Origin: a virus
Strand: one strand, 5' to 3'
IMG/VR virus record: IMGVR_UViG_3300049846_000758
Span: 1 to 42,735 of that record
Length of the DNA: 42,735 bases
Below are positions 5,334 to 20,160 of the stretch, piece by piece. Below the pieces are notes generated by a model. It searched no databases. It had not been told where the DNA came from and worked only from the letters and a program-made list of their open reading frames with translations. Made by a program: the position numbers and the translations under genes. Every line of letters begins with the position of its first letter. The stretch's first letter is position 1.

Positions 5334-5375
5334 TGCAAAAAAGTATTTGCACTGTTTATGGATGTGGAATAGGGT
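5334..5375 (+). promoter_or_regulatory. Early promoter P1 with palindromic operator
   Basis: A perfect inverted repeat TGCAAA-N6-TTTGCA (5334-5351) overlaps a -35-like TTGCAC (5347-5352). After 17 bases comes a weak -10, TAGGGT (5370-5375). The same arrangement is found at 17340-17380. In addition CAAATACTT (5304-5312) is the exact inverted copy of AAGTATTTG (5341-5349), giving a possible second binding site upstream. The strict conservation of the palindrome at two promoters, against diverged spacers, suggests a regulator site. Which protein binds is unknown; no obvious repressor gene is present. Confidence 0.65.
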
Positions 5376-5387
5376 CTCTACATCGAA

Positions 5388-5402
5388 GGGGCCAGTAACC
5401 CC
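5388..5402 (+). promoter_or_regulatory. Leader hairpin GGGG-CCAGTAA-CCCC
   Basis: A short hairpin, stem GGGG/CCCC and 7-base loop CCAGTAA, begins 13 bases after the -10 of P1, so it would sit near the 5' end of the transcript. The element at 17397-17413 has the identical loop on a different stem (CCGGG/CCCGG). The conserved flank CATCRAAGG precedes both. Small hairpins in this position act as boxB/put-type antitermination sites or RNA-stability elements in known phages; which applies here is inference. Confidence 0.6.
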
Positions 5403-5431
5403 GGAGAGAGCAAAACGAAAGAACCAAAGAC

Positions 5432-6166
5432 ATGGCCACAAAGAAAACCCTGTATCACTCCGAGCTGTCCAAGCTCGGTCCGGTGACGATCGAGATCACT
5501 TCCGATCTCATGGAGTCAAAGTACAAGAAAGGCACCTACTTTGTAGGAGTCAAGCTAGACGGTGAAGAGCGCACGCTCAACATAGAGAACGATGAGTGCG
5601 GCGCGGCGCTTGACCAGCGCAAGGGGCAGGTGCTCACCATCGAGGCCACCGGCTCGCGGGAGTCGGCCGAGATCACCATTCTCGACACGCCGCCCGACGA
5701 ACCCGCAGCTCAGGCGCCCGCGCGCCCGGCCGCCCGACCGGCGCCGGTTGCCAGGCCTGCGGCAGCCCGGCCGGCAGCGGCACCGGCGAAGCAGCAGGCC
5801 GCGGCAGCACCGGCGCACAAGCCCGGCAGCACGGCGGCACTCATCCAGCTCGGCAACCTTGAAATCAAGGTGCAGTGCATGTGCGCAGCGGTGTCTGATG
5901 CGCTCATCGCCGGCCGGGACATCGTGCTTACGGATGCGCAGCTTGCCGGTATGGCTGGCCGCATGTTCATCGAGTCGGTGCGCGCCGGGCTGCATCACGG
6001 GATGCCGTCGGATCATCTCATCGACTGCACGCCGAAGGGTGGCAAAGCCCCGGCGCAGTCCTGCACGCCGAAGGGTGGCAAAGCCCCGGCGCAGTCCTGC
6101 ACGCCGAAGGGTGGCAAAGCCCCGGCGCAGTCCGAACCGTCCGACAACGACGGGGGTGCAAATTGA
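5432..6166 (+). CDS. First early gene; possible ssDNA-binding accessory protein
   Basis: 244 aa, first gene after P1. Three parts are visible. Residues 1-~88 form a compact domain (LGPVTIEITSD, GTYFVGVKLDGEERTL) that could be an OB-like fold. Residues ~90-133 are an Ala/Pro linker (ARPAARPAPVARPAAARPA). Residues ~135-195 are a helical segment (LTDAQLAGMAGRMFIESVRAG) similar to the C-terminal part of some phage single-strand-binding proteins. The tail holds three copies of a 12-residue repeat CTPKGGKAPAQS. It lies directly before a Rad50-like ATPase and a helicase, so a recombination or DNA-binding role is likely, but I do not recognise the family. No strong ribosome site is visible. Confidence 0.65.
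   Translation: MATKKTLYHSELSKLGPVTIEITSDLMESKYKKGTYFVGVKLDGEERTLNIENDECGAALDQRKGQVLTIEATGSRESAEITILDTPPDEPAAQAPARPAARPAPVARPAAARPAAAPAKQQAAAAPAHKPGSTAALIQLGNLEIKVQCMCAAVSDALIAGRDIVLTDAQLAGMAGRMFIESVRAGLHHGMPSDHLIDCTPKGGKAPAQSCTPKGGKAPAQSCTPKGGKAPAQSEPSDNDGGAN
6026..6133. repeat. Three perfect 36-bp tandem repeats in coding frame
   Basis: Units lie at 6026-6061, 6062-6097 and 6098-6133, begin TGCACGCCGAAGGGTGGCAA and are identical in all three copies. The unit is a multiple of three, so the gene gains the peptide CTPKGGKAPAQS three times and stays in frame. Perfect identity including third positions points to recent duplication, and copy number may vary between relatives. Confidence 0.95.
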
Positions 6167-11312: not shown

Positions 11313-11690
11313 ATGCTAGACACGGATATTTTGCGGCCATTGTGGACGCAGGCAGAAGCGATCGAGCTGTGCCGAGAGATTGAGCGAGGATGCCCGCAGT
11401 TTGGTTGCCACGTCGCTCTGACTGGCGGCCTACTTTACAAAGACGGACCCCGAAAGGACTGCGATATTGTCTTCTATCGGATTCGACAATTCCCAAAAAT
11501 TGACATGGACAATCTCCTGCCATGGCTGGAATCAAAGGAGATAATTTTCGAGGACGGATTCGGGTTTGTCCTAAAGTTCAGCTTCAAAGGAAAATCGATC
11601 GATGCGTTCTTCCCCGAAGAGCAAGGGGAATACCAGACTGATTCAGAGGCACCTGAGATCGTCGTTCAGGAAGGAGAGGCTATCCCGTGA
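11313..11690 (+). CDS. Nucleotidyltransferase-fold protein
   Basis: 125 aa. LTGGLLYKDGPRKDCDIVFY contains the GG...D-x-D core of the minimal nucleotidyltransferase fold (two metal-binding Asp, ~47 and ~49), and IDAFFPE near residue 97 supplies the likely third Asp. Phage proteins of this type are common beside replication genes; substrates are not known. It is preceded by the strong ribosome site AGGAGGGAGG and the 76-nt hairpin, and is coupled to the initiator gene through GTGA. Confidence 0.75.
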   Translation: MLDTDILRPLWTQAEAIELCREIERGCPQFGCHVALTGGLLYKDGPRKDCDIVFYRIRQFPKIDMDNLLPWLESKEIIFEDGFGFVLKFSFKGKSIDAFFPEEQGEYQTDSEAPEIVVQEGEAIP

Positions 11691-12670
11691 GGCTTTCAGA
11701 ATTTCTAATGGACATCGGGCAGCCATTTGCCTACTACCCGCAGATCGCAAAGCTCTGCGGCGGAGTCAAAGAAGGGATTTTCCTATGCCGGATCATCTGG
11801 TGGCAGAGGGACCCCGGGGAATGGGTCACCAAAACGATGGAGGAGATTGCAGATGCAACCGGGCTTTCCCTCAAGGAACAGCGGTCGGCCCGGTTGGAAC
11901 TCAAGGTGCTCGGGATTCTCAAGGAGATGGAGGACCGGCTGGCGCACGAATTGAGCTACCGGATCGACTTCGAGGCGCTTGACGCTTTGTGGGACGGAGC
12001 TGGAATTTCCCGAAGTGCCCAAACGGCATTCCGGGGAGTGCCCAAACGGCATTCCGGGGAGTGCCCAAACGGCATTCCGTCTATTGGGAAAGACGGTACT
12101 AAAGACAGTACCAAAGAAACACCGGCCGAGCCGGTGCTGGCTTTGGATCGGCCGAAAGCTCAGGTGCAAGTTGCCCGAAGGCCGGACACGCTCATTGACG
12201 TGGATGTCATTCCGCGCAAGCCCAAGGCGGTGCCCGAGGTTCCGATCGTCATGCCGGCCGTCTTGGCAGCGAGCCCTGAGTTCTTTGCGAAATGGGATAA
12301 GTGGCAGACGGCCCGGCGTGCAATGCGTAAGCCAAAGAATTGGTCGGTGCTTTTCCAGGAGCAGCTTGACTGGCTTTCAAAGTATTCGCCGGAGGTTGCG
12401 ACGCAGATCCTGAGCAACTCGATCATGAACGGCTGGCAAGGATTGTTCGAGCCGAAGAACGGTCACGCGGCGAACGGTGGCAACGGAAAGGTTCCGGCCT
12501 GGCAGGAGCGCAAGGAGTGGCAAGAGCAACTGAAGCGAGCGGAGGACGAGATCAAAACGCTGATGAGCGGCGATAGCCACGCGGACCTGGACTTCGTGGA
12601 GAAGGCGACGCTGAAGCGAGCGCGAGCCGTGCGTGATGAGATGCGGCAGAAACTGGGTTATAAGATATGA
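11687..12670 (+). CDS. Phage replication initiator (lambda O-like)
   Basis: 327 aa from GTG 11687 (GTGA overlap). Residues ~1-100 are a winged-helix domain of the phage replication-initiation type (YYPQIAKLCGGVKEGIFLCR, EWVTKTMEEIADATGLSLKE). Residues ~105-170 are a linker that encodes the iterons. The C-terminal region holds WSVLFQEQLDWLSKY and NSIMNGWQGLF, a motif shared by O/DnaD-like phage replication proteins that recruit the helicase loader. As in lambda O, the origin appears to lie within the gene. No DnaB or DnaC homologue is visible, so the host helicase is probably used. Confidence 0.85.
   Translation: MRLSEFLMDIGQPFAYYPQIAKLCGGVKEGIFLCRIIWWQRDPGEWVTKTMEEIADATGLSLKEQRSARLELKVLGILKEMEDRLAHELSYRIDFEALDALWDGAGISRSAQTAFRGVPKRHSGECPNGIPSIGKDGTKDSTKETPAEPVLALDRPKAQVQVARRPDTLIDVDVIPRKPKAVPEVPIVMPAVLAASPEFFAKWDKWQTARRAMRKPKNWSVLFQEQLDWLSKYSPEVATQILSNSIMNGWQGLFEPKNGHAANGGNGKVPAWQERKEWQEQLKRAEDEIKTLMSGDSHADLDFVEKATLKRARAVRDEMRQKLGYKI
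12014..12136. other. Probable origin: three iterons plus three inverted repeats
   Basis: AGTGCCCAAACGGCATTCCG is repeated three times with 23-bp spacing (12014-12036, 12037-12059, 12060-12079). Each unit contains the dyad TGCC-N5-GGCA. Because 23 is not a multiple of three, the protein reads the repeat in three frames (SAQTAFRG, VPKRHSG, ECPNGIPS), so the DNA and not the peptide is conserved. Next come perfect inverted repeats CCGTCT/AGACGG (12077-12096), GGTACT/AGTACC (12095-12112) and CACCGGC/GCCGGTG (12120-12136), in locally AT-richer DNA. This matches the lambda plan of iterons inside the initiator gene. Confidence 0.8.
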
Positions 12671-16868: not shown

Positions 16869-17071
16869 GAACAACTAAAGAACAACTGGCCGGACAAATG
16901 TACGACGCTTACTGTGCAGCGGTTGGTGGCTTGGCGTTTAACGGATGCAAGTTGCCTTCGTGGAAAGAATTCGCTGCGGACCCTAACAAAGTCAAGCAGG
17001 CCGATGGATGGCGGACAGCAGCTCAAGCCGCGATCGATGAAATCGCAAATGACCCGGGGGCATGGGAATGA
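16865..17071 (+). CDS. Small conserved phage protein
   Basis: 68 aa from ATG 16865 (ATGA overlap). The sequence AYCAAVGGLAFNGCKLPSWK followed by EFAADPNKVKQADGWRTAA is a conserved phage pattern (VGG-x-AFNG-x2-LP-x-W, KQ-x2-W) that I recognise but cannot link to a function. It is helical and soluble, and sits in a row of short coupled genes. Confidence 0.7.
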   Translation: MRTTKEQLAGQMYDAYCAAVGGLAFNGCKLPSWKEFAADPNKVKQADGWRTAAQAAIDEIANDPGAWE

Positions 17072-17349
17072 TCAAGCGAACGAAGAACACGGTGGCACAG
17101 AAGCGGTGGCAAGATGCGATTGAGCCGGTGTGCGACTTCGCGGACGCGAACCGTGGCTTCCGCGCCGCGCTCGAAAAGCGGCTGGGCAAGCGGTTCCGGA
17201 GTCGGGAAAAGAACTGGCGCGTGATGCTGGACCTGTGGCTCACGCGCAACCCGGATCGCAGGCGCGAGCCGCTGGCCGGAACGGGCATTGTGGTGCTGGA
17301 AGAGGCCGAAAAGCTCATGGCAAACTGGCCTGAAAATAATGCAAAATAG
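17068..17349 (+). CDS. Small basic protein, unknown
   Basis: 93 aa from ATG 17068 (ATGA overlap; ATG 17062 is an alternative). Very basic and helical: EKRLGKRFRSREKNWRVMLD and LWLTRNPDRRREPLAG. It may bind nucleic acid. No family is recognised. Its 3' end overlaps the operator of P2, so it is the last gene of the first early operon unless transcription reads through. Confidence 0.6.
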   Translation: MIKRTKNTVAQKRWQDAIEPVCDFADANRGFRAALEKRLGKRFRSREKNWRVMLDLWLTRNPDRRREPLAGTGIVVLEEAEKLMANWPENNAK

Positions 17350-17380
17350 TGTTTGCATTCCTGCGGAGTTTGGGTAGATT
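17340..17380 (+). promoter_or_regulatory. Second promoter P2 with the same palindromic operator
   Basis: A perfect TGCAAA-N6-TTTGCA (17340-17357) overlaps a -35-like TTGCAT (17353-17358). A 16-base spacer leads to -10 TAGATT (17375-17380). The layout copies P1 base for base in the palindrome, while the spacers differ. It lies over the last codons of the preceding gene and drives 17436 onward. Confidence 0.7.
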
Positions 17381-17396
17381 GAACGCATCAAAGGCA

Positions 17397-17413
17397 CCGG
17401 GCCAGTAACCCGG
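17397..17413 (+). promoter_or_regulatory. Leader hairpin CCGGG-CCAGTAA-CCCGG
   Basis: This hairpin has the same 7-base loop CCAGTAA as the P1 leader. The stem is CCGGG/CCCGG here against GGGG/CCCC there, so the arms changed together while pairing was kept. CATCAAAGG precedes it, as CATCGAAGG does at P1. AGGA before ATG 17436 is the ribosome site, 15 bases downstream. The shared loop on different stems supports a real RNA element. Confidence 0.65.
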
Positions 17414-17435
17414 GGCCGAACGAAACAGGAACAGT

Positions 17436-17729
17436 ATGACGACCGAACGAATGAGCGAGGAAAAGTTTCTGACTGGGGTGGATCAATTCTGCAACGCGGT
17501 CATGCACGGGGTTGCCAAAATGCTCAAGAGCACCAGCCGCAAGATTGATTACTCAAAGGTTTGCGCGATCATGAAGGAAGAGGTTGGCAAGTTTTTCTCC
17601 ACTTCGGATCACACCTACGACTCGGAGCGGATTTGCGTTTTGAAAGGCAGCCTGAACGATGGTGTCATCGTGGCAGCCGTGATAGTCAACTGCGTCGATC
17701 GGGCAATTGCTGAAGGGGCTCTGCAATGA
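17436..17729 (+). CDS. First gene of second early operon, unknown
   Basis: 97 aa with AGGA seven bases before ATG 17436. The text is mixed helix and strand (MSEEKFLTGVDQFCNAVMHG, IVAAVIVNCVDRAIAEGAL). No family is recognised. As the first gene behind P2 and its hairpin it could be a regulator or a host-directed early protein, but no DNA-binding motif is evident. Confidence 0.6.
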   Translation: MTTERMSEEKFLTGVDQFCNAVMHGVAKMLKSTSRKIDYSKVCAIMKEEVGKFFSTSDHTYDSERICVLKGSLNDGVIVAAVIVNCVDRAIAEGALQ

Positions 17730-18139
17730 GTATCACCCTCTGCCTCTCCTGCGGCCAGCCCATGGCCCCCGGCGCCGAGCGGCCGCCGAGCATGGGCAAC
17801 TCGAACCAGTGCGTGCCATGCGCGACTGGCATATCACTTCCGGCCGAAGGATCGGCTGCGTATCGGGCCACGGACGGCCCAACTCCTGCCGAGTGCGGCG
17901 AGGCTCTTCGAGTGTGGCGGGACTGCCACGGGGCTGACGTGCGAGCGGTAGGAGACACTTTGCCACCGGTTACTGTGCCCAGGACTCATCCCCCTGCGGA
18001 GTCGGGACCGGCAACGACCGAGGCCGGTGGCAATCCCACTCCTGAGCGGGCTGGATACGCCCGCACACCGGGCGCCCAGGGCTCTGCCTCCGAGGCATCT
18101 GCTGGCGCCCACCCTTTCCCGCGCGGGAGGTGGACATGA
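17726..18139 (+). CDS. Protein with N-terminal zinc ribbon and disordered tail
   Basis: 137 aa from ATG 17726 (ATGA overlap). CLSCGQ (~6-9) and CVPC (~29-32) form a zinc-ribbon pattern. Residues from ~75 are rich in Pro, Gly, Ala, Thr and Ser (TVPRTHPPAESGPATTEAGG) and probably unstructured. It is coupled to the SNF2 helicase and could be a small partner. The family is not recognised. Confidence 0.55.
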   Translation: MSITLCLSCGQPMAPGAERPPSMGNSNQCVPCATGISLPAEGSAAYRATDGPTPAECGEALRVWRDCHGADVRAVGDTLPPVTVPRTHPPAESGPATTEAGGNPTPERAGYARTPGAQGSASEASAGAHPFPRGRWT

Positions 18140-20160
18140 GCACCATGCAGCCGCCCTCCGCTCCCGTGGTGCTGGCCATTGAGGATCTGCTTGCGTGGGG
18201 CAAGCCGACCCAGGTTCAGACCAAGGCCGGCCCGCGCATGGTCCGCAAGGCCGCACCGACCGAGGGCTTTTGGTCCGCGTGGAGGGCAGCCAAGGAACAG
18301 CTTCGGGCGGCCGGGGTGTCAGTCACGCAGTATCAGGGCCAGTGGCAGGTGGCTTGGTGGATCCCGATCGACCCGGAGCAACTGGCTCGTGAGCAGGCTG
18401 CCCGCGAGACCGCGCAGGCGCTGACCCGGGCGACGGACGCCGAAGTGGACGTGCCCCGGCCGGAGGGTCTGGAATATCGGGGTTACCAGAAGGCTGGCGT
18501 GGCGTTCGGGGCCGCGTGCTGGAAGGCCGGACGGGGTGTGCTCATCGCGGATGAAATGGGGCTCGGAAAAACAATCCAGGTGATCGGGCTCATCAACTCC
18601 ACACCGGAGATCAAGCGCGTGATCATCGTGTGCCCGAACACGCTCAAAGGAAACTGGAGCCGGGAGTTGCGGAAGTGGCTCACGCGCCCGTTGCGGATCG
18701 GGGTCCAGAAGGCCGGCGTGCCGTGGCTCGGTGACGTGGTGGACATCGTGATCGTAAACTACGACATCGTGCACAAGTATCCCGAGGCGCAGATCCCTTG
18801 CTGGGACCTGCGAGTGATGGACGAAGCGCACTACTGCAAAAACCCGAAGGCGCGCCGGACTAAGGCGACGCTGAGCACGCGGGCTTGGCGTAAGGTATCG
18901 TTGACCGGGACGCCGATCGAGAACCGGCCGGTCGAGCTGTGGCCAATCATAAGCGACCTGGACCCGGCATCATGGGACCCGAAGAAAGGCTTTTTTCGAT
19001 TTGCGAAGACCTACTGTGACGCGAAGAACAACGGCTTCGGCTGGGACTTCTCCGGGCACAGCAAGGAGCAGGAGCTACAGCACAAGCTGCGCAGCACCAT
19101 CATGGTGCGCCGGCTTAAGTCGGACGTGCTTACGGAGCTGCCGCCGAAGCGCCGGCAGATCATTGAGATCGAAGCATCCGGGAATTTCAAGGCCGCCGAG
19201 GCATCAGCGCGGGACGCAACGGAGCGGCTCGATGAACTGCGTGCGCGGGTGGAGTTGGCCCGGGCAAGCGACCGGCGCGAGGACTACGAGGCAGCCGTGC
19301 AGGAGCTTGAGGCGGGTGCTGGGGCTGCGTTCGCGGAGATGAGCAAGCTGCGTTACGAGCTGGGTATGGCCAAGCTTCCCGAGGCAATCGCGTTCATCGA
19401 GGACGCGCTGGAGTCGAGCAAGGTAATCGTGTTCGGGCATCACATCGACGTTGTTCAGGCGCTCAAGGCGAAGTTCCCGCAGGCGGCGGTGATCACTGGG
19501 GACACGCCTGGTGACCGACGCATGGCCGAGGTGGACCGCTTCCAGTCAGACCCGAGGTGCAATGTGTTCATCGGGAACAACGCGGCTGCGGAGGGGATCA
19601 CGCTCACGGCCGGGAGCCACGTGATCTTCGTGGAAGGCGACTGGGTGCCGGGCAAGCTGGCGCAGAAAGAGGACCGCGCTCACCGCATCGGGCAGCGGGA
19701 CTCGGTGCTTGTGACGTACCTGGTCGTGGACGGGACGATTGACGCGGACATGATCAAGGCCAACGTCGAGAAGCTCGGCGTCATTGATGCGGTGCTGGAC
19801 AAGGTGACGGACTACAAGGAGCAGGCTGCGGCACCATCGGCAGGCGATGCGACGTCGGTGCGGGCCGCCCGGGTCACGTTCGAGACGCTGGCCAAGGAGG
19901 CGATCGGCATGAGCCCAGAAGCGTGCGCGCTGGCGCTGGAGGGCATGCAGCGGTTGGCCGGCGTGTGCGACGGGGCCGCGAAGCGCGACATGGCGGGGTT
20001 CTCCGGGGTGGATGCGCGCATCGGGCACAGCTTTGCGGGGCAGGCGCGGCTCAGTCCGAAACAGGCCGTGCTGGCGGTGCGGTTGTGCCGGAAATACAAG
20101 CGCCAGTTGGGTGAGGAATTTGTGGCGCGGCTGGAGGCGTGCCGAGGAAAGTTGTCTTGA
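18136..20160 (+). CDS. SNF2-family DNA helicase/translocase
   Basis: 674 aa from ATG 18136 (ATGA overlap, GGAGGT upstream). Motif I ADEMGLGKT (138-146), II DEAH (229-232), III SLTGTPIENRP, IV VIVFGHHIDVV, V NNAAAEGITLTAGSHVIF, VI QKEDRAHRIGQRDSV. The order and texts are those of SNF2 proteins close to SMARCAL1/HepA. The first ~110 residues are phage-specific (SVTQYQGQWQVAWW), and the last ~110 form a small extra domain. In phages these proteins remodel or anneal DNA at forks. There is no nuclease domain. Confidence 0.93.
   Translation: MSTMQPPSAPVVLAIEDLLAWGKPTQVQTKAGPRMVRKAAPTEGFWSAWRAAKEQLRAAGVSVTQYQGQWQVAWWIPIDPEQLAREQAARETAQALTRATDAEVDVPRPEGLEYRGYQKAGVAFGAACWKAGRGVLIADEMGLGKTIQVIGLINSTPEIKRVIIVCPNTLKGNWSRELRKWLTRPLRIGVQKAGVPWLGDVVDIVIVNYDIVHKYPEAQIPCWDLRVMDEAHYCKNPKARRTKATLSTRAWRKVSLTGTPIENRPVELWPIISDLDPASWDPKKGFFRFAKTYCDAKNNGFGWDFSGHSKEQELQHKLRSTIMVRRLKSDVLTELPPKRRQIIEIEASGNFKAAEASARDATERLDELRARVELARASDRREDYEAAVQELEAGAGAAFAEMSKLRYELGMAKLPEAIAFIEDALESSKVIVFGHHIDVVQALKAKFPQAAVITGDTPGDRRMAEVDRFQSDPRCNVFIGNNAAAEGITLTAGSHVIFVEGDWVPGKLAQKEDRAHRIGQRDSVLVTYLVVDGTIDADMIKANVEKLGVIDAVLDKVTDYKEQAAAPSAGDATSVRAARVTFETLAKEAIGMSPEACALALEGMQRLAGVCDGAAKRDMAGFSGVDARIGHSFAGQARLSPKQAVLAVRLCRKYKRQLGEEFVARLEACRGKLS

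Follow-up and report, generated by a model that had tools for sequence, protein, structure and literature searches.

Two loci of one phage genome, and three of a second phage, were found to carry the same compound element: a promoter, a hairpin of variable stem and nearly constant loop just after the predicted transcription start, and a short A-rich leader running into a start codon. Tentatively, and at a little under an even chance, we regard it as a 5′-terminal mRNA tag of operator-controlled phage promoters, whose loop would be read and which would act on 5′-end protection and/or translation. The first genome, called the window here, spans an entire IMG/VR record (42,735 bp) and has nearly every gene on the + strand.

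At site 1 of the window (all features on the + strand), an exact operator-like palindrome, TGCAAA-AAAGTA-TTTGCA (5334–5351), overlapped the −35 box TTGCAC (5347–5352), in a layout common to five sites of the two phages. The −10 box TAGGGT (5370–5375, spacer 17) matched the consensus weakly and was missed by a simple promoter scan. The predicted +1, the A of CATCGAAGG at 5382, was the seventh base after the −10, the same place as in all five sites. A hairpin (5383–5407) followed, with a nine-position stem (5383–5391/5399–5407) containing purine mismatches and the loop CCAGUAA (5392–5398), and an A-rich leader (5408–5431) reached the start codon. CTCT/AGAG was considered as an outer stem extending this hairpin and was rejected, being upstream of the predicted +1.

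At site 2 (also + strand), the palindrome TGCAAA-ATAGTG-TTTGCA (17340–17357) was again exact and covered the stop of the preceding gene (17062–17349). The −35 TTGCAT (17353–17358) and −10 TAGATT (17375–17380, spacer 16) had the five-site layout, and +1 was predicted at the A of CATCAAAGG (17387). The hairpin GGC-A-CCGGG/CCCGG-G-GCC (17393–17417) had 8 of 9 positions paired, one A/G mismatch and the loop CCAGUAA (17402–17408), with an A-rich leader (17418–17435) reaching the start codon. Reading the two sites thus confirmed the palindrome TGCAAA-N6-TTTGCA, its position over the −35, the CATCRAAGG leader and the CCAGTAA loop, all of which had been reported in a first-pass annotation.

The exact TGCAAA-N6-TTTGCA form occurred twice in the window, with none expected from 100 dinucleotide shuffles. 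CCAGTAA by itself was not rare (four in the window versus a mean of 1.26 in shuffles), and the site 1 hairpin by itself was not unusually stable (z −0.81). The non-random part is the combination of palindrome, promoter, leader and hairpin, not CCAGTAA by itself.

The first-pass annotation had also taken the differing stems of the two sites as compensatory change in an RNA. The window hairpins have a 13-mer, GGGCCAGTAACCC, in common; between them one pair has been replaced on both sides (G-C to C-G) and another has been gained, so that compensation is present as a single event and is weak evidence for an RNA structure within the window. The helix as first described does pair but was drawn too short, belonging to a continuous nine-position stem that extends to 5407 and 17417. 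That one doubly changed pair and the identical 13-mer core would also suit a recent duplication of the cassette inside the window, the stems having come to differ by chance; three sites of the second phage, with unrelated stems but the same loop and layout, contradict this and leave it extremely improbable.

The second phage (L097, also G040; IMGVR_UViG_3300012200_000007, 51.8 kb) was recovered by scanning IMG/VR with AAGG-N0-8-GGCCAGTAACC; among the matches listed, it was the one that also had window-like early genes. It is largely different from the window phage. Genes common to both included one for a DUF7694 protein (51% identity) and a relative of the gene adjoining site 2 (32%), and its portal and helicase belong to families other than those of the window. 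A covariance model built from four sites, a search of the kind proposed in the first-pass annotation, detected a third cassette in this phage, with the loop UCAGUAA. Loop starts were at 2389, 37554 and 50344 (reverse-complement coordinates), and all three cassettes showed TTG-16-TAnATT, a predicted +1 A, a hairpin 2–5 nt downstream and AACAAAACAAAATG. Conservation of loop and palindrome in relatives, on which the earlier reading had been made to depend, was thus found for the loop, but the exact palindrome was absent from the second phage. A direct repeat of ~37 bp (AAAAAATAGTTTCA...TTGTTGCGCCG; L097:1481–1680, − strand) preceded and overlapped the −35 in one of its cassettes and a related palindrome, TGTTTCCGAAAACA, lay ahead of another, so the second phage seems to have an operator of its own.

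Other features were seen around the second-phage cassettes. The gene behind one of them (L162:9155–9413, − strand) matched SymE_toxin (PF08845, 6.8e-10). The third cassette (L160:14233–14260, − strand) was followed by a five-codon ORF (MKGRQ), possibly a coupled leader peptide, whose stop overlapped the next start (ATGA). An extra CCAGTAA hairpin (CCGGCTGCG/CGCAACCGG, 8 of 9 pairs; L162:7913–7940, + strand) lay between predicted genes, on the strand opposite to the phage genes, and had neither the promoter layout nor an A-rich leader.

Anatomy and spacing recurred across the five cassettes: TTG-16/17-TAnnnT, a predicted +1 A, 1–6 nt to a nine-position stem and 14–24 nt from stem to ATG. The promoter layout was found in 5/5 sites versus 0.5% of random positions in both genomes, a chance rate to be read with caution, since these five sites had themselves served to define the layout. 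Paired cells made up 82.2% of the five-site stem, and both sides had changed in seven of the nine pairs. The covariation score was 0.733 against 0.174 in shuffles, a value reached by 0/500 of them, and sliding the stem register gave at most 0.156. The closing pair was G-C in all five, the first mismatch counted from the loop was always A/G (5′ A, 3′ G) after 2–5 pairs, and the loop, YCAGUAA, showed a single change, C to U at its first base. The sites had been found partly via the loop and not via their stems (the third L097 cassette via the model, which includes the stem), so loop conservation partly reflects the choice of matches and stem pairing does not. With the three second-phage sites added, the structural claim of the first-pass annotation gained strong covariation, and the promoter layout likewise supported its placing of the hairpins at the predicted starts of two transcripts. 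From these sequences we infer the start sites, use of the operator and action at the RNA level.

Covariation would equally suit a DNA hairpin, and the upstream palindromes are clearly of the DNA operator type, so the downstream inverted repeat might itself be a second operator or DNA hairpin rather than RNA; the extra second-phage copy on the opposite strand, lacking the promoter layout, points the same way. Protein-binding half-sites would be conserved, though, whereas these arms vary around a fixed spacer, and in 5/5 sites the hairpin stands in sense orientation just after the predicted +1 and before a start codon. Because the arms vary around a fixed loop, with a predicted start 1–6 nt before and a start codon 14–24 nt after, a 5′-terminal mRNA element fits better than a DNA site, which we consider very unlikely.

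A cassette of the same anatomy was found in three genomes (L005, L006 and L007) whose SNF2 helicase is 40% identical to that of the window. Its eight copies comprised TGCAA-N4-TTGCA over a TTGCAC-like −35, at a position equivalent to the window operator, GACACGG, a GATAAT-like −10 (in some copies TACTAT or TAAGAT) and, at the predicted +1, a G+C-rich hairpin whose pentaloop was ACAAC, ACGTC, ATGTC or ATGTG. In six distinct sequences 40/42 stem cells were paired, which 0/5000 shuffles reached. In each genome the SNF2 gene was immediately preceded by one such cassette; window site 2 occupies the equivalent place, but with two small genes in between. The operator half-sites (TGCAA) are alike, but the loops differ (CCAGUAA versus a pentaloop), so this element shares the anatomy and is not of the same family. 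Another promoter type, with TGCAAA-type half-sites, GACACGG, CATAAT and the leader CCGGCCCCTACTTATTRAGGG, was seen at L005:9816 and L424:4053 (− strand), without the pentaloop hairpin. In L003, the nearest early-region relative (36% identity for the first gene of site 1, 46% for SNF2), the promoter orthologous to site 1 had the palindrome ACCAAAA-CTT-TTTTGGT and the promoter layout but no hairpin in its leader, suggesting that the hairpin is an optional module.

A hairpin kept at the same place with a different loop, as in the SNF2 relatives, is what a passive 5′-end stabiliser would give: any hairpin would serve, and the common loop would come from copying of the cassette between phages, not from recognition. 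Hairpins at 5′ ends do impede 5′-end conversion by RppH (PMC3997798). Against this reading, seven of nine stem pairs changed versus one change in the 7-nt loop, which copying without selection on the loop would not yield, although the search itself favoured matches carrying YCAGUAA. On this balance we hold passive stabilisation to be unlikely.

Site 1 opens a replication and DNA-metabolism block. Its first gene (5432–6166, + strand) encodes 244 aa with no assigned function and contains a 36-bp repeat in three perfect copies at its 3′ end (6025–6133); the block includes SbcC-like, helicase, DUF5131, MT-A70, replication O-like, SSB and methyltransferase genes. Within the O-like replication-initiation gene (11687–12670), three perfect 23-bp tandem repeats (AGTGCCCAAACGGCATTCCGGGG, 12014–12079) are placed like the origin iterons of lambda. 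Site 2 lies in a gap of ~90 bases and is followed (17436–20160, + strand) by genes for 97 aa, 137 aa and an SNF2-family helicase (18130–20160), then ParB/methyltransferase and, later on the same strand, terminase, portal and head genes. As one block concerns replication and the other runs from helicase to structural genes, calling both transcripts "early", as had been done, is not justified, and it is not clear that site 2 heads an early transcript.

A small number of copies per phage, all at predicted transcript starts of long one-strand operons, would also be expected of an antitermination site, in which the hairpin would load onto RNA polymerase as it is transcribed, alone or via an N-like protein, so that long operons are read through. 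An antitermination site has no need of a start codon next to it, yet these hairpins always stand immediately before one. Intrinsic-terminator-like sites were no commoner than in shuffles (17 versus 18.5, and 8 versus 20.3), so the sequence gives no sign of a need to overcome termination. Together with the comparisons made below, this renders antitermination somewhat unlikely.

The 5′-terminal tag would work as follows. A palindromic operator would control a sigma-70-type promoter through its −35, and transcription would start 1–6 nt ahead of the hairpin, which is followed by a short unstructured A-rich leader leading straight into the start codon. Acting as RNA, the hairpin would present the YCAGUAA loop, closed by G-C and with the A/G mismatch after 2–5 pairs, as the recognised part, the stem needing only to pair. 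Most probably the loop would be read, at mRNA 5′ ends, by an RNA-binding factor of the phage or the host, and the tag would protect the 5′ end and/or govern translation of the gene that comes first after it. Bacterial mRNAs are known to be stabilised by hairpins at or close to their 5′ ends (PMC3997798). Since a conserved loop calls for a reader, a loop-recognising factor acting on stability or translation is favoured; the factor, and the choice of stability or translation over antitermination, are our guess. The like anatomy of the cassettes in the three SNF2 relatives also speaks for the tag. On the other side, a fixed loop would be superfluous in a pure stabiliser, the loop-bearing set comes from two phages only and was partly found via the loop, the L003 promoter orthologous to site 1 has no hairpin, and the site 1 hairpin has no unusual stability of its own. 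Pairing of the loop to rRNA was rejected, as the third second-phage loop, UCAGUAA, would not fit.

Relatives of the window portal in named genomes were nearly all from Verrucomicrobia, including Chthoniobacter flavus, and the portal of the second phage had 39–42% relatives in genomes of the same class, so the window phage probably infects Verrucomicrobia. DUF7694 was rejected as a host marker because Pseudomonas phages have it at 56% identity. In 384 genomes of the host class, the covariance model (19 candidates per genome scored) gave 11 weak matches, a chance level, and the ten of these that were read had neither promoter layout nor A-rich leader; the leader pattern matched in five of the 384 genomes, no more than a control pattern. 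Both searches were lossy, and at these chance levels the element looks phage-borne. The parts read of genomes with 39–42% relatives of the second-phage portal contained no cassette.

In IMG/VR, pattern scans of which may leave out the window's own record, the exact full-cassette pattern gave no match. Looser CCAGTAACC patterns gave mostly coding sequence or chance matches, and among those listed only the 51.8-kb record passed the stem, promoter and leader checks. A complete scan with a form fitting four of the five sites gave 69 matches, of which only the second-phage sites passed the same checks. A de novo scan of other relatives for repeated promoter-hairpin loops returned only the families already named here. 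INPHARED held no similar cassette, and neither the window nor L006 had a near relative there. Rfam 15 gave no match for the window at gathering score, nor at E up to 5 for both sites and L005–L007.

The control of transcription in Verrucomicrobia phages is little known, and a portable promoter-operator-hairpin unit, fixed in its loop and free in its stem, provides a concrete handle on it: the loop predicts an RNA-binding factor and the operator a repressor or activator, and the cassette lends itself to reporter testing. These cassettes may belong to an undescribed phage RNA tag system, in which hairpins under operator-controlled promoters mark the extreme 5′ ends of mRNAs and a dedicated phage or host factor reads lineage-specific loops (YCAGUAA here, AYRWC-like pentaloops in the SNF2-helicase relatives); we think this possible, with more doubt than belief. 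If lineages do use different loops at the same position, this would parallel boxB/N diversification in an unrelated group.

In lambdoid nut sites, the boxB hairpin lies downstream of early promoters and has a conserved loop on a changeable stem, with loops that differ between phages. The cassettes follow a similar logic of conserved loop and free stem, which speaks for antitermination. The likeness to boxB/nut proposed in the first-pass annotation went no further: no boxA-like site with fewer than three mismatches was found near any of the five hairpins (best match 3–4 mismatches of 9), and the loop is a 7-nt YCAGUAA, not a GNRA-like boxB loop. When most of the window proteins were searched against Pfam and PHROGs, none was named as an N-like arginine-rich antiterminator, a weak absence given that N proteins diverge fast.

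Also like the cassettes, putL and putR of HK022 are cis-acting RNA structures of similar sequence, two per genome, downstream of two early promoters (PMC9378689), a parallel again in favour of antitermination. The likeness to put did not hold in detail. The put RNA has ~70 nt, two stem-loops, a triplex and a contact with the zinc-binding domain of RNA polymerase (PMC9378689), whereas here a single hairpin of 25 nt, its loop 7 nt long, stands next to a start codon and is followed by an unstructured A-rich leader.

Stabilising hairpins of the ompA type begin only a few nt from the mRNA 5′ end, as the hairpins here would if transcription starts at the predicted +1 (1–6 nt away in 5/5 sites). Hairpins of that type are not known to have a conserved loop common to different transcripts, whereas no part of the present element is more conserved than its loop. 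Among phages, the closest parallel in descriptive terms is SAS/ESAS of cluster K mycobacteriophages, a repeated leader motif (GGG-ATAGGAG-CCC) without an assigned function; it directly precedes several genes of a single phage, and an inverted repeat lies upstream of about half the copies (PMC3203893). The SAS/ESAS signature GGGATAGGAGCCC directly upstream of the start codon was not found at the window sites, which differ from it in sequence and position. Common to both systems are a short repeated leader motif and an upstream inverted repeat; SAS stands at the translation start itself, whereas the hairpin described here stands at the predicted 5′ end of the transcript, 14–24 nt before the start codon.
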